Source of the DNA: Tetraselmis striata
Lineage: Eukaryota > Chlorophyta > Chlorodendrophyceae > Chlorodendrales > Chlorodendraceae
Assembly: GCA_006384855.1 (NCBI GenBank)
Contig: VCJN01002263.1
Location: forward strand, 1 to 64,000
Length of the DNA: 64,000 nucleotides
Direction: 5' to 3'
Shown: positions 9,666-38,623 of the stretch, in pieces
Position numbering within the stretch: position 1 is the first letter of the stretch
How the letters are laid out: the number at the start of each line of letters is the position of its first letter
Notes under the pieces: model-generated
Database searches by the model: none
What the model saw: the letters and a program-made list of their open reading frames with translations, nothing else
What the model was told of the DNA's origin: nothing
Made by a program: the position numbers and the translations under genes

Positions 9666-9996
9666 TTTCAAAGTTGAGTCTGGTTTTGCCAAAAAGGTCG
9701 CGCAGGCTGTTTTACACGGTCAAGAGCCGAAATTGGCAGGAAGGTTTAGCGAAAAGCGTGGAGGGAAAACGGAGTCAGGGGGGGCGCTGCGTGGAACGCA
9801 GCGAAAACTGGAAGATGGCAGGCTCAGCTGTTCTGGCTGCTTTTATGTCTACTCGTGCTGCACCCAACAAGGGCGCAACAACAGTTACTAGTTCCCGTAC
9901 CACTGCGCAGCACTTGTAGCTGAAAAGCGGTTAGGTCAAGGATGGAAACCCCATAAACTAGTTTAGATCATTTCAAAGTTGAGTCTGGTTTTGCCA
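9666..9996 (-). repeat. B1-A2-B2 terminal block of copy A
   Basis: Sense order: B1 (9996-9971, GGCAAAACCAGACTCAAC and on), A2 (9970-9785, ending in an 8-bp-stem hairpin CGCTGCGT/ACGCAGCG with a 3-nt loop), then B2 (9784-9666, ending with the B1 sequence). These split direct repeats should allow a circular intermediate to be restored and resolved by the recombinase. Confidence 0.8.
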
Positions 9997-10049
9997 GTCT
10001 TGAGCGAACGGAGAGAGCGGGGGATTGACGGAGAAGGGGTAGCGCCAAG

Positions 10050-11711
10050 TCATGAAGGAGGCACTGGGAAGGCCACCGCTGCGGAGTCCTGTTGGACTTG
10101 GAAGTGGCGGAGAGGGGCGATGTGTCTAAAGAAGAACCACGCGCCAGGAGAAGGAAGAACGTTGGGGTCGATGTAGTCCAGAACGACATCAGAGTTAGTG
10201 GCCCAACCGCCCTGGTAGCGGATGTGGGACAGTGGCGCTCCAATGGCGTTTGCTGCAGAGGCTGCGCCCTTGCGTAGACTGTGTGAAGTCCAGGAAGTGC
10301 CAGCAGGGGGGGCAGCGTTGACTAGGCTGACTGCTGTAGACAACCAGTCTGACATCGTAGTAGCAGTCCAAGGTTTCGACTGCTCAGCCACATTGACAGC
10401 CCAGAAGTTGGAGGTAGCCAAGCCAACAGTAACCAGGGGGACAGACTGGACGTTGTCGATGAAGTAGCGCAAGAGACGTGCCACTCGAGGGTGCTCGGAC
10501 ACTGGAAGGAGAAGGACGCGCAGGTCGTCAGGTCCCCGCCGGCCGGCGCGACCCTTCTCGCGGTAGATCTGCAAGGTGATGTTGTAGGTGTCGACATGCA
10601 CATCTTGCACTCGACAGGAGACGCCAGTAAGGCCCCTGGCAAAGAACAGGAAGTTGACAACCGAGGCCAAGAGGGCTCGGTAGTCGAGGTGGGACTCTGG
10701 GTAAGGAGCAGACACAATTAGCTCGGCCTTTGAGACGAAGCGGTAAGCTACATCCGCAGGCAGAGGGACACGCAAAGGGGCAGCGTCCAGTCGACGCTGA
10801 CGTAACATTAACCCACGTCTTGCCGAAGTGAGGTGTAGGCTGTCCTTGGCGATCGGGACGAGGTTGTGCAGCTCGAAGAAGGTGTTGATGGCAGACAGAT
10901 AGGGCTGCAGCGACTTAGCTGCGATATGCCCTCGCTCCCCGATCCAGGCAACGTACCGAACAACAGTAGCAGTAGTCGCCTCTAGCGGGCTGATGTTCTC
11001 GGAGTCGTGGCAGAACTCAGCGAACTGAGCCAACCTGCCGGCGTAGCTCTTGAGGGTCTGAGCGCTGAGGGAGCTGGAGAGCAGGTCGAGCGTCCGCTGG
11101 CCTAGCTCGTCTGAGCCGAACGCGTCCTGTAGTCGGGATCGCAGTGATGCAGCCCACGGAGCGATAGCTGCGGGCTCGTCGATTACGTAAGTGCGTCGTT
11201 TTACTGACAGAGTGCCACCGGGACGGCTACTGTTCGCAAAGTACTCGGCAGCAGCGGTTAGGTTCCCGGCGGTTGGCCGGTAGTTGCTGGACGGGTTTGC
11301 AGTAGCTTCAGTACGGGTTTGCGGGGCTAGGTTCAGGTAGGAGGGCCGCCCCGCGCGCCCTTCGCGCTCATAGCGCCTGTCCCGTGCGTAACGTACACGC
11401 GCGAAACTTGGTCGTTGCGAACCGGTTGTAACTTGTAGTGTAGCAACCGACGAACGCAGAGATGGGGTTGTAAGAAAGGCGGATGGTTGAGCCGCCATGT
11501 GCAGGTGTGCGGATGGTTGAGCCGCACTCGGCTGTAGCTGTAAGAAGCGCCGCACCGAGGAAGGTCTAAATGAAGTCTGTAAGGTGGGGGGGTCAGGTCC
11601 TGACACGGGGCGCTCATCCCGTCGTTGAGCTGCAAGGGTGCGCCTTGCGGCGGTCACCGAAAGGTGGCCTCGCAAGGCTCCTGCAGCTCCGACGAACGGC
11701 GCCCCACACCG
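10050..11711 (-). CDS. Tyrosine recombinase of element copy A (readthrough product)
   Basis: Site-specific recombinase expected to integrate a circular element copy. The frame is open from just after the Gag TGA (11714-11712) to the stop at about 10050. The first ATG in frame (in HLHMAAQ) lies about 80 codons in, so expression probably depends on readthrough from Gag. The N-terminal ~150 residues are Arg/Ser-rich. Then comes a SAM-like core-binding domain (LSAQTLKSYAGRLAQFAEF). The catalytic domain has FFARGLTGVSCRVQDV (candidate first Arg), HSLRKGAASAANAIG (H-x-x-R), GGW, and the nucleophile Tyr in VLDYID. All motifs are present, so the enzyme looks active. It fits DIRS/Ngaro-type or Crypton-type recombinases rather than phage integrases. 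Confidence 0.85.
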   Translation of the reverse strand, partial: RCGAPFVGAAGALRGHLSVTAARRTLAAQRRDERPVSGPDPPTLQTSFRPSSVRRFLQLQPSAAQPSAHLHMAAQPSAFLTTPSLRSSVATLQVTTGSQRPSFARVRYARDRRYEREGRAGRPSYLNLAPQTRTEATANPSSNYRPTAGNLTAAAEYFANSSRPGGTLSVKRRTYVIDEPAAIAPWAASLRSRLQDAFGSDELGQRTLDLLSSSLSAQTLKSYAGRLAQFAEFCHDSENISPLEATTATVVRYVAWIGERGHIAAKSLQPYLSAINTFFELHNLVPIAKDSLHLTSARRGLMLRQRRLDAAPLRVPLPADVAYRFVSKAELIVSAPYPESHLDYRALLASVVNFLFFARGLTGVSCRVQDVHVDTYNITLQIYREKGRAGRRGPDDLRVLLLPVSEHPRVARLLRYFIDNVQSVPLVTVGLATSNFWAVNVAEQSKPWTATTMSDWLSTAVSLVNAAPPAGTSWTSHSLRKGAASAANAIGAPLSHIRYQGGWATNSDVVLDYIDPNVLPSPGAWFFFRHIAPLRHFQVQQDSAAVAFPVPPS

Positions 11712-12587
11712 TCACTCGTGCTCACCTTCGCGGCCGCGTCCACGTCCGCCGCCACGTCCTCGCCCACGCCCGCGACCTGCAGCTGCAGCCGCCACTCGAG
11801 AAGTAGCGGTCGCCTTGGCGCTGCTGGCAACGGTCGCCTCGAAAACACGACGCTCGTAGTCCCGCATGAGGTCCCCAAAGATCGCGGAACCCAGATGCTC
11901 CGAAGCAGGCTGAAAATGCTGAGCTCGCAGCACATCCAGAACACCTTGGTCACCGTGCACACGCTTGATCTCATTGAGCTTCCGTAGGAAGGCCAAACGA
12001 AACCGAAACGCCTTGTCGATGGCCTCGGCGTGGTTCCGGGCTCTCGCGAGGTAGGGGGTGAAGTCCTGGTTGCTGGAAGGGACGTAGGGCAGTAGCTCGT
12101 CGAGCGCCACGAAAAGGGCGGCCATGTGGGCCCCGAAACACGACATCCACAAGTACTCCTCCTGGGCCGGCAGACGCCGGTCATCCTGCTTGAGGTACTC
12201 GTTCGTTAGGTCGGTGCTCAAAGGGAAAAGTCCAGGCACTCGGCTGACCGGTCGAACGGCCTCGTAACCAGACTCTGCTCTCTGCAGTAGCTCTGGCACC
12301 GCGAGGTAATCATCCTCGGCACTCACGGATTTTGCTCCGACACGGCCGCTCTGGGCTAGCTCTAGCAAGTCGGGGCGCTCTGCGGCTCCCCCGCTGCCTG
12401 TCGGCTGTCTCGCGAAGCGCTGCCCTGAGCCGGAGCCATGTGCCCCTTCTCCATCAACAACGCGATCACGAGCCGTCAATTGTGCCACAGCTGTAGCCAG
12501 CTCTCGCAGTAATGAAGACTGGGCCCTCATATCTGCGTCCAGCGACTGCAGCGTCGGCTCAGCGACGGGTTCTTCTCCATCTGACAT
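11712..12587 (-). CDS. Gag-like protein of element copy A
   Basis: 291 residues from ATG at 12587 (MSDGEEPVAEP) to a TGA at 11712-11714. The N-terminus has a short helical, coiled-coil-like stretch (SSLLRELATAVAQLTA). The middle is a conserved helical domain (VPGLFPLSTDLTNEYLKQ, then DKAFRFRLAFLRKLNEIK). The C-terminus is an RG-rich tail (GRGRGRGRGGGRGRGREGE), which suggests nucleic-acid binding. Position and composition fit the Gag of DIRS-like elements; no zinc knuckle is present. The TGA is followed by CGG and the same frame continues into the recombinase. Confidence 0.75.
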   Translation of the reverse strand: MSDGEEPVAEPTLQSLDADMRAQSSLLRELATAVAQLTARDRVVDGEGAHGSGSGQRFARQPTGSGGAAERPDLLELAQSGRVGAKSVSAEDDYLAVPELLQRAESGYEAVRPVSRVPGLFPLSTDLTNEYLKQDDRRLPAQEEYLWMSCFGAHMAALFVALDELLPYVPSSNQDFTPYLARARNHAEAIDKAFRFRLAFLRKLNEIKRVHGDQGVLDVLRAQHFQPASEHLGSAIFGDLMRDYERRVFEATVASSAKATATSRVAAAAAGRGRGRGRGGGRGRGREGEHE

Positions 12588-12700
12588 AGTAACGCACGGA
12601 CGTACGGACGAGAATATCACACTCGGGTGGCGAGCCGGGTGTGGTCTTGAACAACCTGGGGTGACCTTGCTCGCAACGGGTTACGAGACAGTTTTTACAT

Positions 12701-12888
12701 CGCTGCGTGGAACGCAGCGAAAACTGGAAGATGGCAGGCTCAGCTGTTCTGGCTGCTTTTATGTCTACTCGTGCTGCACCCAACAAGGGCGCAACAACAG
12801 TTACTAGTTCCCGTACCACTGCGCAGCACTTGTAGCTGAAAAGCGGTTAGGTCAAGGATGGAAACCCCATAAACTAGTTTAGATCATA
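12701..12888 (-). repeat. A1 terminal repeat of copy A
   Basis: The 5' repeat of the element, identical to A2 (9785-9970). It includes GCAGCACGAGTAGACATAAA, a TATA-like stretch that could serve as promoter, and ends in the CGCTGCGT/ACGCAGCG hairpin. The interval to the Gag ATG (about 110 bp) would be the leader. Confidence 0.75.
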
Positions 12889-14416
12889 AATATATGCGGA
12901 ATAACCACACCGCCCCCCAATATTTTATTGGCGGGCGGTACCTGTACCCATAGTCGTCTGATCCTGATGATTCGGGGTCTGCCCAGGGCGGGCATGTCTG
13001 CCACCCTGCCACCCCAGTGACTACTACGGGTTCCGCACCGTCATCGTACCGGGATACTGGTACGAGTGCCCTTGGAACCGTGCGCGGTAACGGTATTGAT
13101 ACCGGTATACTGCCCTTCAATACATGATAGGTAAGCGTTGCTGATACATGATTCATCGCCGTTTGTTTACAGTTCAGATGCCACCAGACGCCACCGGCGC
13201 TAACGGTACGCGGGTGCGGGATGCTGGGCGCGGTAGCGCGACGGCATCGGGGGTGGACAGCCGGACAGGTAGTCGCTGGATAGCGACTTCCAGTAAGGTT
13301 TGTAGCGGGTTTTTTTAGGTTTACGCTACTCGTATTCGATTCATCATGAGCAGCATGGCCGTCATCATCATCTGCATCATCATTTTCCTACTATATGTGC
13401 ACGGACCATATAAACATGCGGCTAACATTTCTAGAGCATACTCGTACCCATCATGCCCATCACAATAATAAAGAGTGTGTATCATTTTTGCGCTTGTCAT
13501 GCGTGTAGCATACGCGCAGCTATTCTCGAGCACTTTAGGTCATTTACCTAGATTTCGATATAGAGCAATCCTCACAGCATAAATAAAGAATCACTTGAGT
13601 GCCTATTCTGCATGCCATGGACACTGATGTAGGATCCCTCCCCCCCCACCAAAAAAACGACTGTATTGATCAAGTGCGACGACAGCACGGCCACGCCAAG
13701 CACTACAGCATGGCTGCAAGTGTGACCACCAGAGTCCACCCCCAGAGAACACCCGCTCCCTGCACAATACACTGCCAGCAAAATGGGTTGCAAAGCTGGT
13801 GCCATTGGGATATGGGGTTGCAGTTAAGACTGGCCGTCAAGTCGTCGATTAGTGGTGTTGCATCGATACTGGCATGCTCGAGAGAAAGCGTTTTGCGGGG
13901 AGCAATAGGGGGGGCAGTCAGGCAGGCAGGGATCCGCCGTCAAGTTCCGCCGCTCGTCTTCCACTCGTCACCCTCATCATTGCATCCATGCACTCGTAGG
14001 GCGAGCTGGGCAGCAAAGCCGCACCCTTTTCTCTATTCATTTCATTTCTCTTTTCCAATTCAGTTCCCCCCCCCCCCCCCCCCCCCCGCGCTCGGCTCCA
14101 ACAGGAGCTACCTTCGCACCACAATTATGATATCATTCAGCCACCTGCACTTGGCGATGGAATCTCTCTAATTTCCATCTTCATTCGTACAGTCTTACAT
14201 AACTGGTATGGATCGGCTGCATGTACTTGTTGGGTTTTTTAAATGCCAACTAACTGCTATCTGCTACAAAAGGGGGGGCTATTCAAAGAGCCAGTTCACG
14301 GCCGCGAATGGCGACTTCGTATCCCGAGCTGCTGGCCAATGCGAGCCATTTATTTAACTTTGCTGATAGGCTATCTATTTTGTGTGCGTCCCTAGAGGTC
14401 CCCAGTCTGGAATGAT
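12889..14416. other. Intergenic, no gene seen
   Basis: AT-richer spacer between element copy A and the Nudix gene. It has a poly-C run at about 14067-14087, an ATCATC-rich stretch near 13360-13385 and a GGTAGTCGCTGGATAGCGAC inverted word near 13267. Open frames are short or low-complexity. The 3' UTR of the Nudix gene should lie at its right end. Confidence 0.4.
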
Positions 14417-15814
14417 TCACACGGACCTGCCTGCTGTTACCTTGGCTGCCGCCGCCTGCACGGGCCCAATCAGCGGTATGTCCGCCTCTGGCATAGCGAA
14501 CTCTGCCAGCCGGTGCGCCTCCACCCACTGCAGTGCCTGGCCCTCTGCGCCAACCGGCTCGCCCTCCCACTTTGTGCAACCTGGCAGAAAGCCGGTTACA
14601 AAATTTATCAGCATCCCCCTTCTCCGACACAAACACAGACACACACACACACACACACGCACACACACACACACATACACACACCAGCTAGCTGGGAAGC
14701 GTGAAGCAGGGTGAAGAAGGCAAGCTGCGGCGCGGCAGTGGGGGGGGGGGGGGGGGGGCTGCCCCTGCCTCACCGTACAATGGCATCAGCAAGTGGAACT
14801 TCTCGTACGTGTGACTGGCAAAGGTGATGGGGGCCAGCGCGGAGGGCTCCACCCGCAGCTCCAGCTCCTCCTGCAGCTCCCGCACTAGTGCTACCTCGGG
14901 CGACTCATTGGCCTCCACCTGCATGTAACCCGCAAGAGGCCCCGTGCTCAGGCCCCAAACAAACAAGCTTCAGCGCACCCAGATTGCCAGCACACTGTGT
15001 TGCTGGGACACCATCCCACAAACATCACCAGAGTGATGTCCTAAAGTCCCCCCCCCCCCCCCCCCCCAAAAAAAAAAGGTAAGCACCACACAGGAGCTTA
15101 CGCTCAACTCTACACGAACTTCCGAATGATGTAGTGCGGCCAGCCCTCAGCTCTCATAACACAGCTCTCATTGTGACCCCACAGCGCCGTCGCTCGTGTG
15201 CCGGTCCAGGGAGGCGGGGGTAAGGGGGGCGGATCGGCTTACTGGGGCAGGGGAAGGTGGGAGTTGGGGATGGGGGTGTTGGGTGGGCGGGGGTTGGGGA
15301 TGCCTGCTGGCCCGGCGAGCTGCGGCGTGTGGGAGCCTGTGTGACCAGGCCGCATCTGTGCTCACTGGAGGTAAAAAGTTGGCATCATTGGGCTGACCGG
15401 GCTCTCAGTATGGGTAGTGCGGCCGCAGGATGCGGCTCTACACTTACACTTCCATGCGGGAGTGGAGAAGTACAACACACTGTGTTGCCGTTTTTTCATC
15501 AGAATCTGTAATGTATTCACTGTAGTCGCTATGTGGTTGATACCACAACTCGTATCAAAAGCGAGCCGTCCTTAGACCACTGTTGTGTAACGGAAGCCGG
15601 GGAAGCTGCGCGGGTTTTAAGTCGGCGATTATCCGTGGAGGCAGGGGGTCACCTTGCCGCCTGGAAACTCCCACAACCCGGCCATGGCCTTCCCCTCGGG
15701 GCGCTGAGCGAGCAGCACACGCCCCTGGCAGTCGAAAAGTGCCACGGCAGAAACGAGCACCATCCGCAGCGCCGTCGGGCTTGCCGCGCCGCCCTCGCCA
15801 CTGCCGTTGCTCAT
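14417..15814 (-). CDS. Nudix (MutT-type) hydrolase, three exons
   Basis: Hydrolyses nucleoside diphosphate-linked substrates; by family resemblance probably a nucleotide-pool sanitiser of the 8-oxo-dGTPase type. Exons on the minus strand are 15814-15653, 14918-14774 and 14580-14417, giving 156 residues and a TGA stop. The protein opens MSNGSGEGGAASPTALRMVL and continues with the Nudix strand LFDCQGRVLLAQRPEGK and WEFPGGK. The Nudix box GGKVEANESPEVALVRELQE, then ELEL, crosses the first splice junction. The third exon has WEGEPVGAEGQALQWV and FAMPEADIPLI, typical of MutT. Glu replaces the usual Gly near the end of the box. Introns carry a C run on the sense strand (14741-14758), a G run (15045-15067) and an AC microsatellite. 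The frame upstream of 15814 is open, so a longer N-terminus is possible. Confidence 0.88.
14637..14685. repeat. (AC)n microsatellite
   Basis: CA dinucleotide repeat with a few interruptions, inside the second intron of the Nudix gene. Confidence 0.9.
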
Positions 15815-17511: not shown

Positions 17512-18657
17512 CTAGCTCTCCGCGACCTCCATTACTGCAGGGCTATACCACTGCAGGCTTTTGTCGTCAGCCTCGGCCACAGATGCCAGCGTCCACTCAA
17601 ACCCCTGATTCGGGTTCCATGAGAAGTCCTGAATTCTGGATGTGTGGCCGCCATGCACAAACACCAGCTCAGCGGGCCCGTCGCACGCGTCTTCCCTTGC
17701 TTGCTCCTCCCCAACCTTGTTCAGATCCCAGATCATGAGGAGGTAGTCCCCTCCCGCGCTGGCGATGCATGACTTGTGGTGCGGATTCCAGGAGATCTGG
17801 TAGATGCAATCGGAGTGGTGTGCCATGACATGTAGGGGCCTCTCCAGCTTCCTGGTATCAAACAGCCCCAGCGTGTGGTCGGCTGATCCAGTGGCCAGCA
17901 GCGGCTCCGCTGCCGGATGGAATGCCACACAGTGTATCTCATCCTGGTGGGCCACAACCTTGCTCACAGCTGCTGACACTGGTGGCAGGCGGTCATCGTA
18001 CACGATGAGGAGCTTGTCGTCTCCGACTGAGGCGAAGGTGTGCGCATCCTTGCTATGCCAGGAAACGTCTCCCACTGGGCCATCATGGTGCTTGAACACC
18101 GCCAGTGGATCCATCGTACCGCGCTCATCGCCCACGCCCCACAAGCACACCGTGGCATCCAAGGAGCAACTCAGCAGCCGGCCCTGGCACTGGGTGTTCC
18201 ACGCCAGACCGAATCCCTCCTCCTGCGGCCCCTTCAGTACGAGCTGCGGCGTCGAGTTCTGCTCAGCTTCCAGGTTGTAAATGCAAACGTCGCCAGTCAC
18301 TGTCTGTGTGGCGATTACGTCCGGGTCCTGTGGCATGTACCTGGCCCGGTTCACCTCACCCCCATGACCCAGCTCGTGGGCGATCTGTATCAAAGGGGTA
18401 TTTGTAGCCCCCTTGCCGTCCCCGTTTCCAGCAGTGCTATCAGGAAGTGGAACTTCGGCCACCCACAATGTGTCCTGAGCTTGGCCTTCCGTGAGCGTGC
18501 CAAGCAGAATCCTGTGATGCTCACACTCTTCGTCCGGGACGGTTGCCTTCCCCGGCAACCACTGTACGGTGAGACTAGGCGTGCGCAGCGGAAGTTTCTG
18601 CCAAAAATTGTACAGGAACCTTGAGTTCCTCTTCCAGTTTTCATAGTCCCGCAACAT
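17512..18657 (-). CDS. MSI1/RBBP4-type WD40 histone-binding protein
   Basis: A nuclear WD40 beta-propeller of the MSI1/RBBP4/CAF-1 p48 family. These proteins chaperone H3-H4 in CAF-1, PRC2 and deacetylase complexes. The single exon ends in TAG. The N-terminus DYENWKRNSRFLYNFWQ and LTVQWLPG is the H4-binding helix region. GEVNRARYMPQDPDVIAT, GFGLAWN, DVSWHSKD, LLATGSADHTLGLFDTRK, GGDYLLMIWDLNKVGEEQ and FVHGGHTSRIQDFSWNPN follow the family blade by blade, including the acidic insertion before FVHGGH. The first ATG is at 18657-18655. The frame is open upstream (DEGEQ) but has no earlier ATG nearby, so a short upstream coding exon is possible. Several usual positions differ (NFWQKLPLRTPSLT), suggesting a diverged paralogue. 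Confidence 0.9.
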   Translation of the reverse strand: MLRDYENWKRNSRFLYNFWQKLPLRTPSLTVQWLPGKATVPDEECEHHRILLGTLTEGQAQDTLWVAEVPLPDSTAGNGDGKGATNTPLIQIAHELGHGGEVNRARYMPQDPDVIATQTVTGDVCIYNLEAEQNSTPQLVLKGPQEEGFGLAWNTQCQGRLLSCSLDATVCLWGVGDERGTMDPLAVFKHHDGPVGDVSWHSKDAHTFASVGDDKLLIVYDDRLPPVSAAVSKVVAHQDEIHCVAFHPAAEPLLATGSADHTLGLFDTRKLERPLHVMAHHSDCIYQISWNPHHKSCIASAGGDYLLMIWDLNKVGEEQAREDACDGPAELVFVHGGHTSRIQDFSWNPNQGFEWTLASVAEADDKSLQWYSPAVMEVAES

Positions 18658-19061
18658 TTGCTCCCCCTCGTCCCTTGTCAACGGGCAGTTGGCAGTCGCC
18701 TTCGGGGGTGTGCGATGGGGTCTTCAACAGCAACGTCGCGGGGCGTTGCAGAGCCTGCGCCAGCTTACGCCACGCCGGGAAAACCCTCGCGACAGTCGTT
18801 TCAAGGCCAGCAAATGGCAGAGGTTCGCTCGCTTCGCCTGATGAGGATCAACAGGCGGAGCTCAGGTAGGCGCGCTACGACGCGCGCGCGGACAGTGGAC
18901 GACGATCAGTGAGGATCGGACTTGTACAAGTCTTCCTGCGTGTTGTGCCGCGCGGGTATATCTCAACACGCTGCGCACCCTTCAGAAAATCTCAGATATC
19001 GCGCGACCATATCGATATCTGCAGCAAGGATCCATCAAATGTTGTACCTTTCGGATATTGT

Positions 19062-19112
19062 CCTTTTTTGGGGTGATTTCCGATATCACCTGCTGCTGCT
19101 AGCTCATGTAAA
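19062..19112 (+). repeat. LINE 3'-terminal repeat, copy 2
   Basis: TTTTGGGGTGATTTCCGATA, then CACCTGCTGCTGCTAGCTCATGTA, matching 9034-9077. No ORF of the element is recognisable upstream, so this is a strongly 5'-truncated insertion. Confidence 0.65.
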
Positions 19113-20046: not shown

Positions 20047-23000
20047 ATGGGCTCAAGCGCCCACCTGGCGGCGGGGCACTTGCCGCTGTACAGCTCCTCG
20101 CAGCTGCAGGCTGTGCTGCCTCCCGCGCCACGTGTGCCCAGCACCGCGTCCAGCGTGATGTGCGGCATCGTTCGGCTCGGGGCTGCAGAGGTGGACAGCA
20201 CTGCAACGCTGATGGACTCCGCGGCCAGCCTGTTTGCGGGGAGAACCTGGGAGGGCCCCAGCTGCAGGGCGTCCTCAGCCGGCAGCCCCGCCCTGCTAAC
20301 ACCCCGCTCCGAGGCCTCCTCTGCGTCCTCATGTGAGCCCGCCAGGCCGGTTGAAGACCAGTCGCACTTTGAGCTGCCCGGCACCCACGTCATCGACCCC
20401 CTCACGGTGCGCGGCCCCATTGCCCTTCCCCTGGACCATCACAAAGCCCCTAGTCCTCACTGTGCGCTGACCTAACCCTTTGTCCTTTCCTGCCGTGCAG
20501 GGCATGTTCGGCGGCCTGTCGCGCAAGCAGCACGACGCGGAGGCGCGCAAGGCGGAGCGCAGTCAGTCGGAGCCGCCCGCCACATGGCAGCAGCGTCTGC
20601 GAGTGACAGCGGCAGGCCAGCGCGATGTAGAGCAGGTGCTTGGCCGGATGGTGGAGACTGCGGCGCTGCAGTGCGCGGCAGAGCTCAACCCCGGGCTGCT
20701 GGAGGTGGGCGGATCTCCACCCTGAGACGCGCGGGTCTCCATTGCCTGTGATGCATGCCTAAGGAGGGAATGCTGCAGTCTGTTGGGGCGCAATGACCAT
20801 GGACCGTGATCCGAGTAGTTTGAGGCTGCCGCTGCTGAGCAGATCATCTTCGCTTGTCAGAATTGGGGAGACGCTGGGCGGGAAATTGGCGAGGGGGGGG
20901 GGGGGGAGAGGGGGGCTGGAAGGGTGAGAGTGTGGGTGGGGGGCTGCGCTTGCGCATTGCAGTCCGCTAGTTCGACCTTTCGTGGCCATAGTGACACAGA
21001 GGACAGATTTGGGGCTGACATAGCCGCTGTGGTGTGGCGGTGAAGGCGCTGGAGCAGCACACAGCGGCATGCTTTCATGCGGAGGCCACAGCGCAGTCGG
21101 AGGTGAGCCCCCCCCCCCCCCCCCCCCCTCCCTCCCCCTTCCTCCCACCGAAGACCCTCCCTGCCAGCCAAGCCTCCCCGCTCTGTCTCCGCGGCTGGGC
21201 CTTGCAGTCTCTGTAAGCTAACAGAGAGCCGCGCTGCGTCGCATTTATGCCTCCTCTTCAGAATCCAAAGCAGCGCCGGGCACTAAAGGCCCCACACGCG
21301 AAGTCGGCGCCAGGCTTGGTCAGCGCCTCTGTCACGCGGCACGCGACGCCTATGTCCACGCCCCCAACCAAGCCGCCGCAGCCGGCCATTGCTCGCCGCC
21401 CAGGCGACAAGTGGCACCAGGCGGCTCCTCCGCAGGCTCGCCAGGTGCCTGCCCAGTCCTCCGCACTTTCCACCTCTGCACCCCTGCTTTTTCTCTATCT
21501 TTGATGGTGCAAGGCAGAGGCCGGGATCAGTCTGAGTCTTGTGATTGAGCATTTGTCCCGCTGTTGCGCCAGGCGCCTAATTGTGCCAGGGGTTAGTCGC
21601 GGTCAGCAAATGTGTTTTAGAAGGCAATATGGTTTCCACTGAGTGTGCCGGCAAGCAGAGGCAACTGCATGGCCTTGAACGGCTGCGGTATGCGATGGCT
21701 AGCAATGTATTCCATATTCAGTAATTCAAGACAATGGCGCTGGTGCCGCAGATACAATTACCGCACCCTGCTGCCGGGGCACTGATGGTGTCGCCCTGCT
21801 GCGTTGCTCTCTCGCTGGTGCGCCCCCCTATAGACACGGGCGCAGGTGCTGCAGTTGCGGTGGAAGGGAATCAGCGCGCAGGCCAAGCGGCTGCGGGACC
21901 AGGTTCGCGCGCAGGAGCGGTTCCAGCAGACCAGGAACCGGCAGATGTCCAAGGAAGGGGTGCGCTGACCCCCCCCCCCCACACACACACACACAGAGAA
22001 ATCCCTGTCGCTTCCAACCGAGACCCACTTTCAGAGATGTTGCGAGCGCCATGCTTGGCTCTTTTCTAAGACGCACTGAGTCGAGTGCTGGTCCCCTCCC
22101 TCCCCTCTTCCCCCCTATTTCGATAGCAAGCGGAGATGGAGCAGAGGCTGCTCCAAGAGCAGCAGGCAGTGTCAACAAGCGAGCAGCACAACGCAGATTG
22201 CGCGGGCGATGAGATTGCGGAGCAGTCACTGCCGCCAACAGACTCGGGGGACCCGCCCTCGGGGCCGCTGGTCCGTTGCGACTCGCCTCTTCCTTCCCAT
22301 GCCAACCTGGCCTTTAGTCTGCAAGCGAGGCGATTCGCGCGCTGTGGTAGCCGAGTATGCACACAGACATATAGCGACGCTCGGAGAAATTGGCCCTCGG
22401 GAGTCGCCGAGCGTCGTTACGACGAATCATCCGGAAATTGTGGTCCACTTGTTGTCCAAGTGCTGGCCACTTGGATTCTCGATGGAGTAGCCGAGCAGCC
22501 ACGATTTTATCCCTCGGACGATCCGAGGGGTGTCGGCCGCCAGCAGCCGCGGGACCGTTATATAGGGAAATTGATAGCTTCCGATCAAATCGTCAATTTT
22601 GCCAAAGCTTATTATAGCCTGTTTCGAGGGCGTATTGACGAGTATCCAAGAGGCAGGCACATTATTACTATAAAGCCGACATCTATCAGACTTTCCTAGT
22701 TACGAATGTAGTCGGGCCTTTTTCTCATCCTGTTTTAAGTTATGTGTTGCTTGATGACCGCTCGCAGCCGCTGGGTAGCACGGGCGCGCAGGATGCCGAG
22801 GAGCTGCTGCGGTCCTTTCAAGGCCGCAGCTCTTTGTTCGCTTCATCGAGTCGGGAGCAGAGTGGGCGAGCGTCCCAGCTGGCGCCGCTCCCTGGCGCGG
22901 GCGGTGGGCGCTGCGCGTCTGTCGGGACAGAGGTCGCCGTCTGCCCTGTGGAGGTGGGTCCGGGTGCACCGTCACTGTCTCATGCGGCGCGAACACCGGC

Positions 23001-26891: not shown

Positions 26892-26903
26892 CTGCGCACA
26901 CGC

Positions 26904-26941
<38 letters not shown>

Positions 26942-27814: not shown

Positions 27815-28114
27815 TGTTTTAAACTAGTTTATGGGGTTTCCTCCCTTGACCTAACCGCTTTTCAGCTACAAGTGCTGCTCAGTGGTACGGGAACTAGACA
27901 TCTGTTGTTGCGCCCTTTTTGGGTGCAGCACGAGTAGATATAAAAGCAGCTAGAACAGCTGAGCCTGCCATCTTCCAGTTTTCGCTGCGTTCCACGCAGC
28001 GATGTAAAAACTGTCTCGTAACCCGTTGCGAGCAAGGTCACCCCAGGTTGTTCAAGACCACACCCGGCTTGCCATCCGAGTGTGATATTCTCGTCCGTGC
28101 GTCCGTGCGTTACC

Positions 28115-28970
28115 ATGTCAGATGGAGAAGAACCCGTCGCTGAGCCGACGCTGAAGTCGCTGCAAGTAGATGTGCGGGCACTGGCTACAGCTGTAGCTCA
28201 ATTGACGGCTCGTCAGCGCGTTGTTGATGGAGAAGGGGCACATGGCTCCGGCTTCGGGCAGCGCATCGCGGGACAGCCGACAGGCAGCGGGGGAGCCGCA
28301 GAGCGCCCCGACTTGCTAGAGCTAGCCCAGAGGCGGCCGTGTCGGAGCAAAATCCGTGAGTGCCGAGGATGACTACCTCGCGGTGCCAGAACTACTGCAG
28401 AGAGCAGAGTCTGGTTACAAGGCCGTTCGACCGGTCAGCCGCGTGCCTGGACTCTTTCCTCTGAGCACCGACCTAACGAACGAGTACCTCAAGCAGGATG
28501 ACCGGCGTCTGCCGGCCCAGGAGGAGTATTTGTGGATGTCGTGTTTCGGGGCCCACATGGCCGCGCTTTTCGTGGCTCTCGACGAGCTGCTGCCCTACGT
28601 CCCTGCCACCAACCAGGACTTCACCCCCTACCTTGCTAGACCTCGGAACCACGCCGAGGCCATCGACAAGGCGTTTCGGTTTCGTTTGGCCTTCCTGCGG
28701 AGGCTAAATGAGATCAAGCGTGTGCACGGTGACCAAGGTGTTCTGGACGTGCTGCGAGCTCAGCATTTTCAGCCTGCTTCGGAGCATATGGGTTCCGCGA
28801 TTTTTGGGGACCTCATGCGGGACTACGAGCGCCGTGTCTTCGAGGCGACCGTTGCAAGCAGCGCGAAAGCGACCGCTACTGCTCGAGTGGCGGCTGCAGC
28901 TGCAGGTCGCGGGCGTGGGCGAGGACGTGGCGGTGGACGCGGGCGTGGCCGCGAAGGTGAGCACGAGTGA
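28115..28970 (+). pseudogene. Gag-like ORF of copy B, frameshifted
   Basis: Starts MSDGEEPVAEPTL at 28115. Compared with copy A it lacks a short segment near residue 30. One extra G in the CCAGAGGCGG run near 28330 breaks the frame. The downstream frame (28356-28970) is intact through the RG-rich tail to the TGA, which again is followed by CGG. Confidence 0.8.
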
Positions 28971-30632
28971 CGGTGTGGGGCGCCTTTCGTCGGAGCTGCT
29001 GGAGCTTTGCGAGGCCACCTTTCGGTGACCGCCGCAAGACGCACCCTTGCAGCTCATCGGCGAGATGAGCGCCCCGTGTCAGGACATGACCCCCCCACCT
29101 TACAGACTTCCTTTAGACCTTCCTCGGTGCGGCGCTTCTTACAGCTACAGCCGAGTGCGGCTCAACCATCCGCACACCTGCACATGGCGGCTCAACTAAC
29201 CGCCTCCCGTACCATTCCATCATTGCGTCCGACGGTTGTTACACTACGTGTTACAACTGGTTCGCAACGACCAAGTTTCGCGCGGGTACGTTACGCGCGT
29301 GACATGCGCTACGAGCGCGAAGGGCGCGCGGGGCGGCCCTCTTACCTGAACCTAGCCCCGCAAACCCGTACCGATGCTACTGCAAACCCGTCCAGCAACT
29401 ACCGGCCAACCGCCGGGAACCTAACTGCTGCTGCCGAGTACTTTGCGAACAGTAGTCGTACCGGTGGAACTCTGTCAGTAAAACGACGCACTTACGTGAT
29501 TGACGAGCCCGAAGCTGTCGCTCCCTGGGCTGCTTCATTGCGATCTCGGCTGCAGGACGCGTTCGGCTTAGACGAGCTGGGCCAGCGGACGCTCGACCTA
29601 CTCTCCAGCTCCCTCAGCGCTCAGACACTCAAGAGCTACGCCGGCCGGCTGTCTCAGTTCGCGGAGTTCTGCCACGACTCCGAGAACATCAGCCCGCTGG
29701 AGGCGACTACTGCTACTGTCGTTCGGTATGTTGCCTGGATCGGCGAGCGGGGGCACATCGCAGCCAAGTCGCTGCAACCTTACCTGTCTGCAATCAACAC
29801 GTTCTTCGAGCTGCACAACCTCGACCCAATCGCCAAGGACAGCCTACACCTAACTTCAGCAAGGCGTGGGCTGATGCTGCGTCAGCGCCGACTGGACGCT
29901 GCCCCTTTGCGTGTCCCTCTGCCTGCGGATGTAGCTTACCGCTTCGTCACAAAGGCCGAGCTGATTGTGTCTGCTCCCTACCCAGAGTACCACCGCGACT
30001 TCCGAGCCCTCCTGGCCTCGGTTGTCAACTTTATGTTTTTTGCCAGGGGCCTTACTGGCGTGTCCTGTCGAGTGCGAGACGTGCATGTCGACGACTACAA
30101 CATCACCATGCAAGTGTACCGAGAGAAGGGTCGCGCTGGTCGACGGGGACCCGACGACCTACGCGTACTTCTCCTCCCAGTGTCAGAGCACCCCCGAGTG
30201 GCATGTCTCCTGCACCACTTCCTCGACCACGTCCAGTCAGTCCCTCTGGTTACTGTTGGCTTGGCTGTGTCAAACTTCTAGGCTGTCACTGCGGCCGAGC
30301 AGTCAAAACCTTGGACTGCGGCTACGATGTCAGACTGGCTGTCCACAGCCATCCGTCTGGTCAACGCTGCCCCCCCTGCTGGCACCTCCTGGACCTCGCA
30401 CAGTCTTCGCAAAGGCGCAGCCTCTGCCGCGAACGCCATCGGTGTGCCATTGTCCCACATTCGCTACCAAGGCGGTTGGGCCACTAACTCTGACGTCGTT
30501 CTGGACTACATCGACCCCAACGTTCTTCCTTCACCTGGCGCATGGTTCTTCTTTGGACACATCGCCCCCCTACGCCACTTCCAAGTCCAACAGGACTCCG
30601 CAGCGGTGGCCTTCCCAGTGCCTCCTTCATGA
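28971..30632 (+). pseudogene. Tyrosine recombinase of copy B, one nonsense codon
   Basis: The same frame as the Gag tail continues after the TGA at 28968-28970 through to 30632. A single in-frame TAG (30279-30281) replaces the Trp codon present in copy A at the equivalent NFWAV position. H-x-x-R (HSLRKG), GGW and DYID beyond it are intact. Otherwise about full length and highly similar to copy A. Confidence 0.85.
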
Positions 30633-31216
30633 CTTGGCGCTACCTCTTCTCCGTCAATCCACCGCTCTCTCCGTTCGCTCAAGACTGGCAAAACCAGACT
30701 CAACTTTGAAATAATGTTTTAAACTAGTTTATGGAATTTCCTCCCTTGACCTAACCGCTTTTCAGCTACAAGTGCTGCTCAGTGGTACGGGAACTAGGCA
30801 TCTGTTGTTGCGCCCTTTTTGGGTGCAGCACGAGTAGATATAAAAGCAGCTAGAACAGCTGAGCCTGCCATCTTCCAGTTTTCGCTGCGTTCCACGCAGC
30901 GCCCCCCCGTGACTCCGTTTTCCCTCCACGCTTTCGCTAAACCATCCTGCCAATTTCGGCTCTTGACCGTGTAAAACAGCCTGCGCCACCTTTTTGGCAA
31001 AACCAGACTCAACTTTGAAATGATGATATATGGAATCCTCGAACTACGGGTACCGGTACCCCGCGATAGTAAAGTCTGCTAAGTGTAGCGACTAATCCTT
31101 TGTCGGGTGCAGACGCCCTTCCTGAAGAGACCTTTCGTTGCGCTACGGTACCGCCAGGGTCGGGTTTTTTGTGACATGACAGCTGTGTCATCGTTTGTAG
31201 TATTTCCGTTTTATTA

Positions 31217-32565: not shown

Positions 32566-33278
32566 TATTTCAGGGACGAAAAATAAACCGGCTCACCCCT
32601 CAAAAGAAGAATAGCCCCGATTGCAAAAAACCCCGGTAAGGGAGCTAAAAACTACAATGGTACGTTTGCATCGAGTTTTTTTTCCGTGATTTCGCGGCTC
32701 TTGAAGTGTTGCACGGCTTCGTGTCCTATATCCATGGGGGTATGCAGGTACTGTGCTCTTTCATGTCGCTCTTTCTAATATAAAGCGGATACTACTGCTC
32801 GACACCGGAACATACTATGGACGAACTGCAAAGGTATTTAAGCAAAGAGACATGTCTCCAGCTAGTCGCTACATGGTACGTAGCGCGCGCGAAGCCAGTC
32901 CGCCAGCCGACCGGGCCCCGCGGTGCGCGGGCCGGCCGGGCCGGGCGCGGCGGCCGTCTGCTTTGCGGCTTGCCAGTACCAAGCTCGAGGGGGTCACTTG
33001 GGGACGGAAGGCATACGTGCTCTAGTCGAGCGCAAGGATACATTTTGAGTACGCATGGTCGAGGCTCGGTTGACTGTCGGAGGCGTGCCGGTCAAGTACA
33101 AGACCGTCGTTGAGGCTATCGCGGCACCCTAAATAGCATCGCACGAGAATAGCCGATTTGTAAATTAGCACAACTCAGAAATCGAACTTGCCCCCTAGTT
33201 CTTGTTGATTGCATGCACCCGCGTGGTGAGTGTTGTTCCAAAAAGCCTCATCTTGTGGCACTTAGCTCGATCACCAAG
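32566..33278. other. Spacer, no gene seen
   Basis: Between the TA-flanked transposon and the MITE. It has a GC-rich patch at about 32880-33010 with frames on both strands but no recognisable domain. Nothing else supported. Confidence 0.35.
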
Positions 33279-33575
33279 GTCCGGACCAGGGTTGGGTTAC
33301 AGTCCACTTTCCAGTACTGCAGACTGCAGTGCATTAGTGCAGCTGCAGTGCAGGCTGCAGTCAACAGGCTGCGGTGCAGGCTGTAGTAGCACTGAAACTG
33401 TAGATTATACGGAAGGGCGGGACAGTGAAGGGCATATATTTGGGGAAATTTGGGTAATTGCACTGCAGCCCCTTTTCGGGAAGTACTGTAGGCTGCAGTG
33501 CAGTAGCTTAACTGCATGCTGCAGTTTCTGCAGTCTGCAGTGCAGTAGATACTGCAGTCCAACCCTTGTCCGGAC
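33279..33575. mobile_element. hAT-like MITE with 8-bp target duplication
   Basis: The element is 33287-33567 (281 bp), starting CAGGGTTGG and ending CCAACCCTT. It is flanked on both sides by GTCCGGAC (33279-33286 and 33568-33575), an 8-bp duplication typical of hAT insertions. The interior is packed with CTGCAG palindromes and related TGCAGTGCAG words that pair between the halves, so the strand can fold extensively. No coding capacity. Confidence 0.75.
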
Positions 33576-34960
33576 CCTAACCAGGGTCACTCGTGGTGCA
33601 CTTGTCCAACGAGTCGCGAATCAAGCTACCTGTGCGGTCGCCGGCACTGCTGCCGCTACGCGTCCCCCACATCAACCCCCCGCGCAAGGGAGCTCCCCCT
33701 CATCCCATATTGTTACCATAAAACACACTCAGCATCGAGACCGGACGAAGGACTAACCACATGAGCGGGGACTTCCAATAAATCTCGACGAAGTGCGATG
33801 CATGACCTAAAAAACCCCGGCGAGGCCGTAAATTTCACCGGAAGGTCTCTACTTGGGCATGTATTGGAATTAGCGGCACCGCGAGAAAACTTCCGTGCAA
33901 GAAAACAGGGTCGGAAAACTCCGCAGGTTTCCTTGCACCGAAATCACAGTTTTTTTGTAGAGTTGCAGTACTCGATGCTCCCGGTATTGAGATTAATACA
34001 ATTGGATGCAAGAAAGTATAGTGCTGCGACAAGCAGCGATGTATGCGTCGGGAGGATCCCGCCCCACATGGCGCCGATAGATGCAAACTCTATCGGCTAC
34101 TCAATTCGCGCCAAAGCAACTCGCTCGCCACATCCCAAGCCAGTCTTTTACCATCATACACTCATCATTGTGAGACACCCCGATGGCGCGAGGGTTAGTG
34201 CGTCGCGCAATGGTTCCCGCCGTCGTGTTGCTAAATGCCAATCCTCGTTGCGCAGACAGCACTCATGCATGTTGCAGTCCCGCAGTCCGATCTCTCCGCC
34301 ATGCTTGCATGCCAGCTGCAAATAAGCTAAGGCAAAAACGGAAAACTTCGGGCCCACGAGTCGGGAAAACCACACTACCGAGGGCGGTTTGTCTATCGCT
34401 GCATGATGATGTAATGCATGTGCGCGGCACGACGACTTGCTACCGGGAAAGGGAACTTGATCAGCCTCTACGACCCTCGCGCACAAATGCACGAAGCCGC
34501 TGCCGAAGCTGGGAGATGGCATGCGAGGTACTGGTGCCTGTCCTAAGTAGCTCCCCCGCCGGGAGCGCATGGCTCGCGGGCGATGGGGCAGCATGTATTG
34601 AAACATGATGGTACCGGTAACCAGCACCGGTTGAAACCATCAAGTACAAATCGTACTGGTCGTACTAGAACAGTCAAATTGTTGGGAAACCGTACATCAA
34701 CTAGTTTATTACATTACATTTACATTATTACATGTTGCATGTACGGTACGCGACTACTGGTATATGTACGAGAATGGCGACGTGGAGGAGTGTTTGTTTG
34801 GTTACAGAAAAGCGTCGGTCCCGAGAATGCACGGCATTTACTTAGGAAGGAAGAAGCCAACATTAGGTGGCAGACGACTAGTACTGATGGTAAGTACTGA
34901 TGGGTTTGGTCCTTCCCATTACCGTACGAGTATACATGTAGACTGTACGGTACGCGATCT
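33576..34960. other. Repeat-like spacer with unassigned ORFs
   Basis: Holds a 175-codon frame with ATG at 33798 (MHDLKNPGEAVNFTGRSLLG) and an overlapping 141-codon frame at 34183-34608, neither recognised. It resembles decayed mobile-element sequence rather than a gene: no splice structure, and average GC. Ends at the left edge of element copy C. Confidence 0.3.
34765..34786 (+). repeat. 22-bp direct repeat, left copy (partner 38181-38202)
   Basis: TGTACGAGAATGGCGACGTG plus two bases is exactly repeated at 38181-38202, immediately after the right end of element copy C. The left copy lies about 175 bp before the element's left end. Confidence 0.85.
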
Positions 34961-35243
34961 ATTCTAAACTTGTTTGTGGGGTTTCCTCCCTTTCCCTAAC
35001 TGCTTTTCGGCTACCGTGCTGCTCAGTGGTACGGGAACTAGGCACTTGTCGTTGCGCCCTTTTTGGGTACAACACGAGTAGACATAAAAGCAGCCATAAC
35101 AGCTGAGCATGCCACCTTCCAGTTTTCGCCGCGTGTTACCTGTCTCGTAAACTGTTGCGAGCAAGGTCACCCCAGGTTGTTCAAGACCACACCCGGCTTA
35201 CCACCCGTGAGTGATATTCTCATCCGTACGTTCGTGCGTTACC

Positions 35244-36122
35244 ATGTCAGATGGAGAAGAACCCGTCGTTGAGCCGATGCTCGAATCGCTACAAGCAGAC
35301 GTGAAGGCTCAGTCTACATTGTTGCGCGAGCTTGCAACAACGTTGGCTCAGTTGACGGCTCGTGACCGTGTTGTTGGTGGAGACGGGGCACATGGCACCG
35401 GTTCCGGGCAGCGCATAGCGGGATAGCCGACAGGCAGCGGGGGAGCCGCAGAGCGCCCCGACTTGCTAGAGCTAGCCCAGAGCGGCCGTGTCGGAGCAAA
35501 ATCCGTGAGTGACGAGGATGACTACCTCGCGGTGCCAGAGCTATTGCAACGAGCAGAGACTGGTTACGAGGCCGTTCGACCGGTCAGCCGCGTGCCTGGA
35601 CTCTTCCACCTGAGCACCGACCTAACGAACGAGTACCTCAAGCAGGATTACCGGCGTCTGCCGGCCCATGATGAGTATTTCTGGATGTCGTGTTTCGGCG
35701 CCGACATATGGCCGAGCTTTCGTAGCTCTCGACGAGCTGCTACCCTACGTCTTAGCTGCAAATCAAGACCTCACCCCCTATACCTCGCGCGTGCTCGGAA
35801 CCACGCCGAAGCCATCGACAAGGCGTTTCGCTTTCGTTTGGCCTTCCTGCGGAGGCTTAACGAGGTCAAGCGTGTGCACGGTAATCAAGGCGTTCTGGAC
35901 GTGCTGCGAGCCCAACATTTTCAGCATGCTTCTGAGCATCTAGGTTCTGCGATTTTTGGGGACCTCATGAAGGACTACGAACGTCGCGTCCTTGAGGCGA
36001 CAGTTGCCAGCAGTGCAAAAGCAACCGCTACTGCTCGAGTGGCGACGGCGGCTGTAGAACGCGAGCGTGGACGTGGGCGTGGTGGCGGGCGCGGGCGTGG
36101 CCGCGAAGGTGAGCACGAGTGA
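35244..36122 (+). pseudogene. Gag-like ORF of copy C, disrupted
   Basis: ATG at 35244 (MSDGEEPVVEP). An in-frame TAG at 35424-35426 replaces the CAG codon of copy A, and two compensating shifts near 35690-35790 scramble the middle. The RG-rich tail and the terminal TGA with following CGG are preserved. Confidence 0.8.
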
Positions 36123-37789
36123 CGGTGTGGGGCGCCTTTCGTCGGAGCTGTTGGCGCTTTGCGCGGCCACCTTTCGGCGACCGCCGCAATGCGAACCCTA
36201 GCAGCTCAACGACGGGATGAGCGCCTTGTGTCCGGACCGGACCCCCTCCCCTCACCTTACAGACTTCATTTAGACCTTCCTCGGTGCGGCGCTTCTTACA
36301 GCTACAACCGAGTGCGGCTCAACCATCCGCACATCTGCGCATGGCGGCTCAACAAACCGCGTCCCGTACTATCTCATCGCTACGACAGTCGGTTGTCACA
36401 CCATGTGTTACAACCGGTTCGCAACGATCAAGCTTCACGCGTGTACGTCACGCGCGTGACATGCGCTACGAGCGCGAAGGGCGCGCGGGGCGGCCCTCCT
36501 ACATGTACCTAGTCCCGCAAACCCGTACTAGTGATGTTGCAAACCCGTCCAGCAACTACCGGCCAACCGCCGAAAACCTAACCGCTGCCACCGAGTACTT
36601 TGCTAGCATGAACCGCCCCTCTGTTACTATGTTGGCCAAGCGCCGCACTTACGTAGTTGACGAGCCCGAAGCTGTTGCCCCGTGGGCTGCTTCACTCCGG
36701 TCTTGGCTCCAGTCTGCATTCGGCTCAGATGAGCTAGGGCAGCGGACCCTCGATCTACTCTCCAGCTCTCTCACCGCTCAGACACTCAAGAGCTACGCAG
36801 GCAGATTGTCTTAGTTTGCGAAGTTCTGCCACGACTCCGAGAACATCAGCCCGCTGGAGGCGACCACTACTACTATCGCCCGGTACGTTGCCTGGATTGG
36901 TGAGCGGGGGCACATAGGGGCTAAGTCGTTGCAGCCCTACCTGTCTGCAATCAACACGTTCTTTGAGCTACACAACCTCGACCCGATCGCCAAGGACAGC
37001 ATGCACCTTACTGCGGCTCGTAGTGGACTGATGCTTTGACAACGCCGCCTGGAGGCTGCCCCTTTGCGAGTCTCTTTGCCTGCTGATGTCGCTCACAGCT
37101 TCGTCGAGCAAGCAGAGTTGATTGTGTCTCATCCCATCCCAGCGTACCAGTACAACTTCCGAGCCATGACTCGTGGCCTCGGTTGTCAACTTCATGTTCT
37201 TTGCCAGGGGATTTACTGCCGTGTCCTGCCGAGTGCGGGACGTGCACGTCGACGATTACAACATTACCCTGCAGGTGTACCGCGAGAAAGGCGGCGATGG
37301 TCGACGGGCGGGGTCCCGACGACCTGCGCGTACTGCTCCTTCCAGTGTCGGAGCACCCCCGCATTGCGCGTCTGCATCACCACTTCATCGACCACGTACA
37401 GTCTTCCCCCCTGGTTCCTGTTGCCTTGGCCGAAATAAACTTCTGGGCGGTCACCCCGAGCGAGCAGTCCAAGTCTTGGACCGCCGCTACAATGTCGGAC
37501 CGGCTCTCTACAACCGTTCGTCTTGTCGGTGCTGCCCCTCCCGCCGGCACTTCCTGGAGCTCACACAGCCTTCGCAAGGGAACAGTATCTGCCGCTAACG
37601 CCATCGGAACTCCACATTCGCTACCAAGGCGGCCGGGGCACTAACTCCGACGTTGTTCTGGAATACATCGACCCCAACGTCCTTCCTTCGCCTGGCGTGT
37701 GGTTCTTCTTCGGTCACATCGCGCCCGTCCGCCACTTCCAAGTCCAACAAGAATCCGCAGCGGTGGCCTTCCCGGTGCCAACTTCATGA
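36123..37789 (+). pseudogene. Tyrosine recombinase of copy C, multiply disrupted
   Basis: Continues in the Gag frame after the TGA (36120-36122) to about 36512, then shifts frame near 36240-36290. There is a TAG near 36812, a TGA near 37037 and further indels near 37170, 37310 and 37610. Recognisable recombinase segments remain throughout (TLKSYAGRLS, SWSSHSLRKGT, VLEYIDPNVLPSP). Non-functional. Confidence 0.85.
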
Positions 37790-38623
37790 CCTGGCGCTAC
37801 CCCTTTTCTCCGTCAATCAACCGCTCTCCCCGTTCGCTCATCACTGGCAAAACCAGACTCAACTTTGAAATAATGTTTTAAACTTGTTTTTGGGGTTTCC
37901 TCCCTTTCCATCCCCAACCGATTTGAGGCTACCGTGCTGCTCAGTGGTACGGGATACTATGCACCTGTCGTTGCGCCCTTTTTGGGTGCAGCACGAGTAG
38001 ACATAAAAGCAGCCATAACAGCTGAGCCTGCCACCTTCCAGTTTCGCTGCGTTACACGCAGCGCCCCCCTGACTCCGTTTTCCCTCCACGCTTTTACTTA
38101 ACCTTCCTGCCAATTTCGGCTCTTGGTCGTGTTAAATAGCCTGCGCGACTTTTTTGGCAGAACCAGACTCAACTTTGAAATGTACGAGAATGGCGACGTG
38201 GACAATTGGAAAAATAATGCCGCTGAGCTCGCGCAGCGCCGCCTCCGCGCCATGCGCACGCCCATCCTGGCCTGATCCAGATGCTGCTGCTGCCGCCGCC
38301 GTCCATCGCGTCTGTGCCGCCGAATAATAGAGCTGCGCAGCAGCAGTTGTGTGGACATATATGAGCAGGAGGGGGCTGACCCGCGTTACCCTGCAGTAGG
38401 GACTGTCCCGCAGCACAGCGCAGCTTCCGCAGCCCGACCGCAGCGCCTGTGCCCTGTGCCTACAGCCGAGCAGCCTTTGCGGGCACAACCCGAGAGATCC
38501 CGGGAGATCCCGGGCGGGGGGCACCACCAGAAACCCCCCCTCCCTCCTCCCCAGCTCGGCGCTCCGGGGACAGCTCCTCGCGCGCAGAAGCAGCACAGGT
38601 GCCGGCCGCCGCCGCCAGGTGCG

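Follow-up and report, generated by a model that had tools for sequence, protein, structure and literature searches.

A 64,000-nucleotide (nt) stretch of the green alga Tetraselmis striata (contig VCJN01002263.1, positions 1 to 64,000 of the forward strand; hereafter, the window) raises the question of how a family of mobile elements can make its proteins and multiply when it carries a Gag-like gene and a tyrosine recombinase (YR) between split direct repeats, and no reverse transcriptase (RT). A fairly probable answer is that these elements form an amplified, long-lived and selected RT-less YR lineage, derived from PAT/TOC-type ancestors, which produces a Gag-YR fusion by readthrough of a stop codon and is supplied with RT in trans. 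Three full-length copies, A on the minus strand and B and C on the plus strand (Table 1), share one 3.2-kb layout made of A1, a Gag-like open reading frame (ORF), the YR and B1-A2-B2, as the original prediction, made from the letters alone, had proposed; its coordinates were right to within 1-2 bases. In blastn alignments with copy A, identity is 92.1% for B (3224 columns) and 83.8% for C (3252). A1 and A2 of copy A agree at 187 of 187 positions; B1 and B2, each 27 nt long, do not differ at all in copies A and B and show one mismatch in C. Both the Gag and the YR frames are open in copy A; copies B and C are frameshifted, the first stop of the Gag frame falling at codon 86 (B) and 61 (C). The suggestion that the copies differ in age also holds, as the differences between A1 and A2 within each copy make A the youngest and C the oldest. 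The flanks differ at each of the three insertions, at none of which was a target-site duplication seen when they were compared by eye, so that both the split direct repeats in the order A1...B1-A2-B2 and the lack of target-site duplication agree with PAT/TOC elements of the DIRS order. Left-flank bases adjacent to A1 reappear at the internal B1-A2 junction, as GATC in copy A and TGTTT in copy B, but not clearly in C. Each A repeat of copy A ends with a 7-bp perfect hairpin, CGCTGCG-TTCCA-CGCAGCG (12719-12701 on the minus strand for A1, and also at the 3' end of A2).

Gag and YR share one frame and are separated by UGA-CGG alone, which is retained in the three copies. The original prediction had given the recombinase an ORF of its own; this ORF is present, but its frame continues the Gag frame past UGA-CGG, where a stem-loop of the readthrough type is found. 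The stem-loop, 99 nt long, reaches -67.1, -58.9 and -55.9 kcal/mol in copies A, B and C (z-scores of -7.4, -6.1 and -4.5), and among the 157 windows taken along copy A none is more extreme (z -9.2, with 40 shuffles). Its stability was equalled by 0, 3 and 1 of 1000 synonymous-codon permutations in A, B and C and, with codons drawn from the element's own usage, by 0, 5 and 5, and 95.8% of the 120 pair cells of the stem pair in the three copies. Beyond the stop, the 71-codon linker, which ends where the YR frame has its first ATG, differs at the first, second and third codon positions by 0/1/8 between A and B and by 0/6/12 between A and C (binomial P 0.001 and 0.004), with ratios of non-synonymous to synonymous substitution rates (dN/dS) of 0.11 and 0.18, respectively. 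No third-position excess appears in the control stretches, either the 5' leader (3/4/7 and 15/6/13) or the stretch after YR (2/7/5 and 11/10/13). A review defines type II readthrough by a UGA with CGG or CUA as the next codon and, in most cases, an extended stem-loop that lies around 8 nt further downstream (PMC3542737). The stop context of all three copies, the stem-loop beginning at the 7th nt after the UGA and the coding selection in frame past the stop match such a signal, which suggests that the Gag-YR fusion is probably made by stop-codon readthrough.

The same region admits a different reading, namely that of a compact retroelement in which the UGA is removed by splicing and Gag is joined to YR with no readthrough at all. 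Beside the stop, AAG/GTGAGC does look like a splice donor, and it is in this way that the stop is skipped in many of the T. striata gene models. However, the codons after the stop are selected in the Gag/YR frame, unlike those of an intron, the stem-loop exceeds the synonymous-codon controls, and the spliced models drop YR residues that align with P0130, a 1488-amino-acid (aa) protein from outside Tetraselmis (ENA), so we consider splicing a rather unlikely explanation, although it is the chief rival to readthrough at this step.

Selection acts on the flanking coding parts as well: dN/dS is 0.19 (A-B) and 0.16 (A-C) for Gag, and 0.10 and 0.18 for the YR core. Such low values between compact copies indicate that, after the compact form came into being, both proteins remained functional for a large part of its history and, judging from these substitutions, Gag and YR are maintained by purifying selection in that form.

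The absence of RT and RNase H from all three copies, another part of the original prediction, was confirmed. When six RT, RNase H and methyltransferase parts from relatives (the methyltransferase being included in parts of P0138, P0136, P0160 and others), together with the middle of P0130, were compared by tblastn with the whole window, the best E was 0.4; in the same search the relatives' YR parts gave best E values of 8e-65, 3e-68 and 9e-28 for copies A, B and C. A Pfam scan of the 82 window ORFs of at least 150 aa revealed no RT among 25 of the 30 matched families. The window thus lacks the RT, RNase H and methyltransferase of PAT/TOC elements, and also the RT/RNase H that accompanies YR and split repeats, with no methyltransferase, in Ngaro. 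Nor do the copies resemble a Crypton, which has YR alone and no long direct repeats, since they contain direct repeats of 187 nt and 27 nt and have an ORF besides that of YR.

The compact form extends well beyond the window. The comparison covered 133 proteins, including two from the window itself. Similarity to Gag as well as to YR is present in 117, and in 116 of these, all T. striata models, fewer than 150 aa lie between the two parts; the exception is P0130, with 752 aa. A search shifted to proteins of approximately 1036-3297 aa yielded 11 matches, corresponding to P0130 and ten T. striata models. No RT was found between Gag and YR, either in Pfam scans of P0123, P0124, P0125, P0127 and P0130 or in the precomputed Pfam annotations of the rest. 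A second, less similar T. striata subgroup (P0082, P0102, P0111 and P0114; weak subgroup support, 81/67) is likewise compact, and scans of viral contigs (queries P0001 and P0130, and query sets labelled A6 and A2) and of genome contigs (P0130) confirmed no relatives. The claim that this is an amplified family and not the outcome of random deletion is therefore sustained by the homologous Gag-YR junction of A, B and C and by the 116 compact models. The finding that the original prediction had named as fatal to it, RT/RNase H between the ORFs in most copies, was not seen in these 116, a survey made at the level of protein models.

Some proteins that might have passed for RT-bearing copies were rejected. 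In T. striata P0083 (RVT_1, 1e-13) the RT lies upstream of Gag and was read as a Ty3-like piece of a chimeric gene model, and in P0124 (RVT_1 2e-5, under the cut-off) and P0018 (by eye, with no Pfam match) it is again upstream of Gag and was read as a LINE-like piece of such a model; these last two share the point at which the RT-like piece joins Gag. In P0130, the middle stretch of 752 aa resembles a wrong-frame RT/RNase H by eye only, with no Pfam match, and was not counted as RT. In P0016, P0018, P0085, P0102 and P0124, differing upstream exons join Gag at a near-identical point (QRFA/QRVA...QPTGSGG), which probably reflects either an artefact of gene finding or a cryptic splice acceptor within Gag. 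P0123, a T. striata model of 1317 aa, contains four SAM-like integrase domains and represents a tandem array of truncated Gag-YR units.

The YR ORF encodes a tyrosine recombinase, as in PAT/TOC elements. It matches Phage_int_SAM_1 (5e-8, above the Pfam cut-off) and Phage_integrase (0.002, below it), and its predicted core (residues 185-535; mean predicted local distance difference test score, pLDDT, of 57) finds Cre by Foldseek with an E of 1e-8 and a probability of 1.00, the superposition having a TM of 0.58 by target length and a root-mean-square deviation of 6.6. The YR of copy A contains R359, K386, H477, R480, W503 and Y513, which would be the catalytic residues on the basis of the Cre match at 472-515 and the alignment of relatives. 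A search with the YR ORF returned 350 proteins at E<=1e-3, and the best 120 comprise 119 T. striata gene models (Tetstr1) and one JGI metagenome protein; these 119 clusters represent 341 member sequences (summed by hand), and identity to T. striata models reaches 98% over 80% of the query, a level that assigns the window to Tetraselmis, either T. striata or a very close relation.

As for the ORF upstream of the stop, the Gag label would follow from its position, its GRGRG-rich tail and its resemblance to the part of P0130 that precedes YR, to which it is 28% identical (E 2e-13, or 4e-10 once composition is corrected for). Pfam gives no match for it.

The origin of the family was approached through its relatives. 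With the YR of P0130, 37 proteins were found, 27 from Cymbomonas tetramitiformis, and 21 of these 27 carry RVT_1 in precomputed Pfam annotations. Examples from this alga also match RNase H and a Dam-type methyltransferase, mostly just below the Pfam cut-offs, and in P0134, P0135, P0136, P0137, P0156 and P0160 a weak Tudor-like match separates YR from the methyltransferase/RNase H region. RT, RNase H, methyltransferase and YR are given as the PAT/DIRS gene set in two papers (PMC4157794, PMC3266345). A tree built from 23 YR rows groups the T. striata recombinases together (100/99); they are joined by P0130 (99/98) and then by P0151, a metagenome protein with an RT end and RNase H, and the Cymbomonas rows lie opposite. 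The T. striata proteins are thus placed near RT-bearing green-algal YRs in a tree with long branches flagged for P0151 and P0130, a root set for drawing only and no named PAT/TOC, Ngaro, DIRS1 or Crypton rows, where 2 of the 12 rows labelled RT-bearing (P0134 and P0158) are without RVT_1 in their annotation. The RT-bearing YR relatives in Cymbomonas indicate that the family most likely came from PAT/DIRS-type retroelements, loss of RT in the Tetraselmis line being the simpler reading. T. striata P0074 starts with an 87-residue piece similar to the RNase H of these relatives (E 3e-10 to P0156 and 3e-9 to P0151); a DIRS-type RNase H is therefore probably present in the T. striata genome, and a donor-type element may be present too.

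How the elements are copied can be approached from their repeats. Independent inheritance of A1 and A2 would make the A1s of separate copies closer to each other than A1 is to A2 within one copy. Over 162 gap-free columns, the differences within a copy are 0, 3 and 10 (A, B and C), and those between copies are 9-10 (A-B) and 17-20 (with C); 18 copy-specific sites are common to A1 and A2 of the copy concerned, and none separates the A1s from the A2s. Such homogenisation is expected if each cycle rebuilds the ends. In addition, the TATA-like box of copy A lies 125-131 bases into A1, so the RNA would start without the front of A1, which A2 would have to supply. Homogenisation fits RNA-based copying with RT from elsewhere, and between the two routes offered by the original prediction, RT in trans or movement as DNA, the former is favoured by the homogenised repeats, the TATA-like box and the RT-bearing YR relatives, although it is not proven.

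Movement as DNA, in which YR would excise or copy a circle and reinsert it, Gag would serve another role and the element would be Crypton-like with DIRS-type ends and no longer in need of RT, draws on the apparently intact YR of copy A and on the lack of RT both in the window and between Gag and YR of the 116 models. Yet the repeats, homogenised in each copy, fit an RNA cycle better, even if gene conversion could mimic this, as do the TATA-like box in the repeat and a Gag kept under selection, and the nearest relatives known with more genes carry RT. We consider this route unlikely. An extension of it, by which the YR lineage would have shed reverse transcription entirely and, equipped with a readthrough Gag-YR fusion, would copy and insert itself as DNA circles, a bridge from DIRS to Crypton through RT loss, appears improbable.

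The observations can be integrated in a model with RT supplied in trans, built on the computed architecture, the lack of RT in the window, the YR fold, the readthrough-type signal, the selection across the stop, homogenisation and RT-bearing relatives; to these it would add readthrough in the cell, the function of Gag, RT in trans, a circle and its insertion. In this model, an ancestor would have lost RT, RNase H and methyltransferase, keeping the split direct repeats, the Gag-like protein and YR under selection. The transcript would begin in A1 and yield Gag, and some ribosomes, aided by the stem-loop, would pass UGA-CGG and make the Gag-YR fusion, which would carry the recombinase into the particle as it forms. 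Having no RT of their own, the elements probably borrow the copying enzyme from another element: after packaging, the RNA would be copied by an RT acting in trans, most likely one encoded by a DIRS-type element that the alga also harbours; both ends would be rebuilt with the B1-A2 junction as template, and the circular product would be inserted by YR without target-site duplication.

Several observations weigh against this model. Of 400 background windows drawn from outside the elements, 2 have a z-score of -6 or beyond and 9 fold at -55.9 kcal/mol or lower, and covariation in the stem is no higher than in shuffles, three sequences being too few. In the T. striata gene models it is a predicted splice, placed at the stop or ahead of it, and not readthrough, that connects Gag to YR, and the N-terminal part of YR is less constrained (dN/dS 0.27 for A-B and 0.58 for A-C). 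When the comparison takes in all 179 columns of the repeats, and with them the ragged end of A1 in copy C, the internal differences of C (19) are as many as those of its A2 from A and B (18-20), so the homogenisation signal for C is confined to the 162 columns. The Gag assignment is one of weak similarity, and an AlphaFold2 model of Gag from 9 sequences has a mean pLDDT of 44 and no usable fold. Finally, the RNase H-like piece of P0074, part of a gene model only, has no Pfam match, and no RT donor with the same ends was found.

A further reading, in which a normal PAT element gave rise to dead deletion derivatives and chance or segmental duplication spread them, is very improbable: copies B and C are decayed and RT-bearing relatives exist, but the same compact junction is found in all three copies, which diverge by 8-16% and between which Gag and YR are under purifying selection, the flanks differ at each insertion, and 116 gene models have the same form. 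Decoding of the UGA as selenocysteine, which some green algae use, is hardly credible, as Rfam gives no selenocysteine insertion sequence (SECIS) at E<=1 in copy A, where the sole match (0.64, far below the gathering score) is on the opposite strand, and UGA also terminates YR; a tRNA search returned none.

Table 1. Positions of the three element copies and of their parts in the window.
Feature	Copy	Positions	Strand	Remarks
Whole element	A	9665-12887	-	Youngest; Gag and YR frames open
A1	A	12701-12887	-	TATA-like CATAAAA at 12763-12757
Gag-like ORF	A	11715-12587	-	291 codons; GRGRG-rich tail, no CCHC motif
UGA-CGG	A	11709-11714	-	Gag stop and next codon; type II leaky context
Stem-loop	A	11607-11705	-	99 nt, from 7th nt after UGA; z -7.4
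Linker	A	11499-11711	-	71 codons, UGA to first YR-frame ATG; purifying selection in YR frame
YR ORF	A	10050-11498	-	From first ATG
B1	A	9970-9996	-	27 nt
A2	A	9785-9971	-	First two bases overlap B1 coordinates
B2	A	9665-9691	-	27 nt; right end
Whole element	B	27815-31021	+	Gag frameshifted
UGA	B	28968-28970	+	
Stem-loop	B	28977-29075	+	
B1	B	30686-30712	+	
B2	B	30995-31021	+	
Whole element	C	34961-38181	+	Oldest; decayed
UGA	C	36120-36122	+	
Stem-loop	C	36129-36227	+	
B1	C	37845-37871	+	
B2	C	38155-38181	+	One mismatch

Elsewhere in the window, an ORF at 17515-18723 on the minus strand, with WD40 repeats and an RBBP4/CAF1C N-terminal match, corresponds to a host-type RBBP4/MSI1-like gene, and among the 82 ORFs one matches Peptidase_M50 (4e-28) and another HTH_40 (2.8e-9). 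Outside the elements, hairpin-forming stretches occur at 33442-33545 (z -6.7), a window in which no strong inverted repeats or long arms were found, and at 49948-50077 (z -5.3), which includes a perfect 16+16 palindrome at 49960-49991. Long C-rich runs are found at 21108-21167 and 38680-38779.

The element offers a compact natural system for studying the replication of YR retroelements, its readthrough signal provides a simple and directly testable hypothesis for recombinase packaging, and gene models of a mobile element account for hundreds of entries in the T. striata protein set. Elements without RT are usually stripped of genes. The plant TR-GAG elements, which lack RT, encode Gag and amplify, are of the long terminal repeat type and keep no recombinase, and TOC1 of Chlamydomonas, a PAT-like element of which no description was found in the literature searches, is not known to have an RT of its own. 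That Gag and the recombinase were kept under selection here and RT was lost suggests that both must act on the element's own RNA or DNA, RT being shareable. Among the papers listed in the literature searches, titles and abstract openings reported neither a gene-bearing RT-less YR retroelement family nor readthrough in a YR element, which is weak evidence that an RT-less YR lineage keeping Gag and recombinase, with a readthrough-type stop between them, is new.

PAT-type ends with YR are already known, as are short RT-less YR relics such as SIRE (PMC12278014). PAT/TOC3 elements of green algae, as described in PMC4157794 and PMC3266345, share with the Tetraselmis element the A1...B1-A2-B2 repeats, YR, the lack of target-site duplication and a Gag without zinc finger; in contrast, the Tetraselmis element has no RT, RNase H or methyltransferase, and its Gag and YR form one frame across UGA-CGG. 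The Cymbomonas RT-RNase H-methyltransferase-YR proteins (P0134-P0158 and P0160-P0162, not P0151), known here from proteins alone, have related YRs, most of the full-length matches showing 28-35% identity, but they carry RT and often RNase H, methyltransferase and a Tudor domain. According to PMC12278014, VIPER/TATE of trypanosomatids also combines a Gag-like gene, YR and A1...B1-A2-B2, whereas SIRE, a short RT-less form from the same organisms, retains only the A2-B2 region and no genes. Cryptons likewise have YR without RT, but no Gag, and PMC3212892 describes them as lacking both long direct repeats and terminal inverted repeats. Lastly, the type II signals of alphaviruses, tobraviruses and others combine UGA-CGG with an extended stem-loop about 8 nt downstream (PMC3542737), as does the Tetraselmis element, where, unlike in those viruses, the signal would join Gag to the tyrosine recombinase of a transposable element, a functional parallel to gammaretroviral Gag-Pol.

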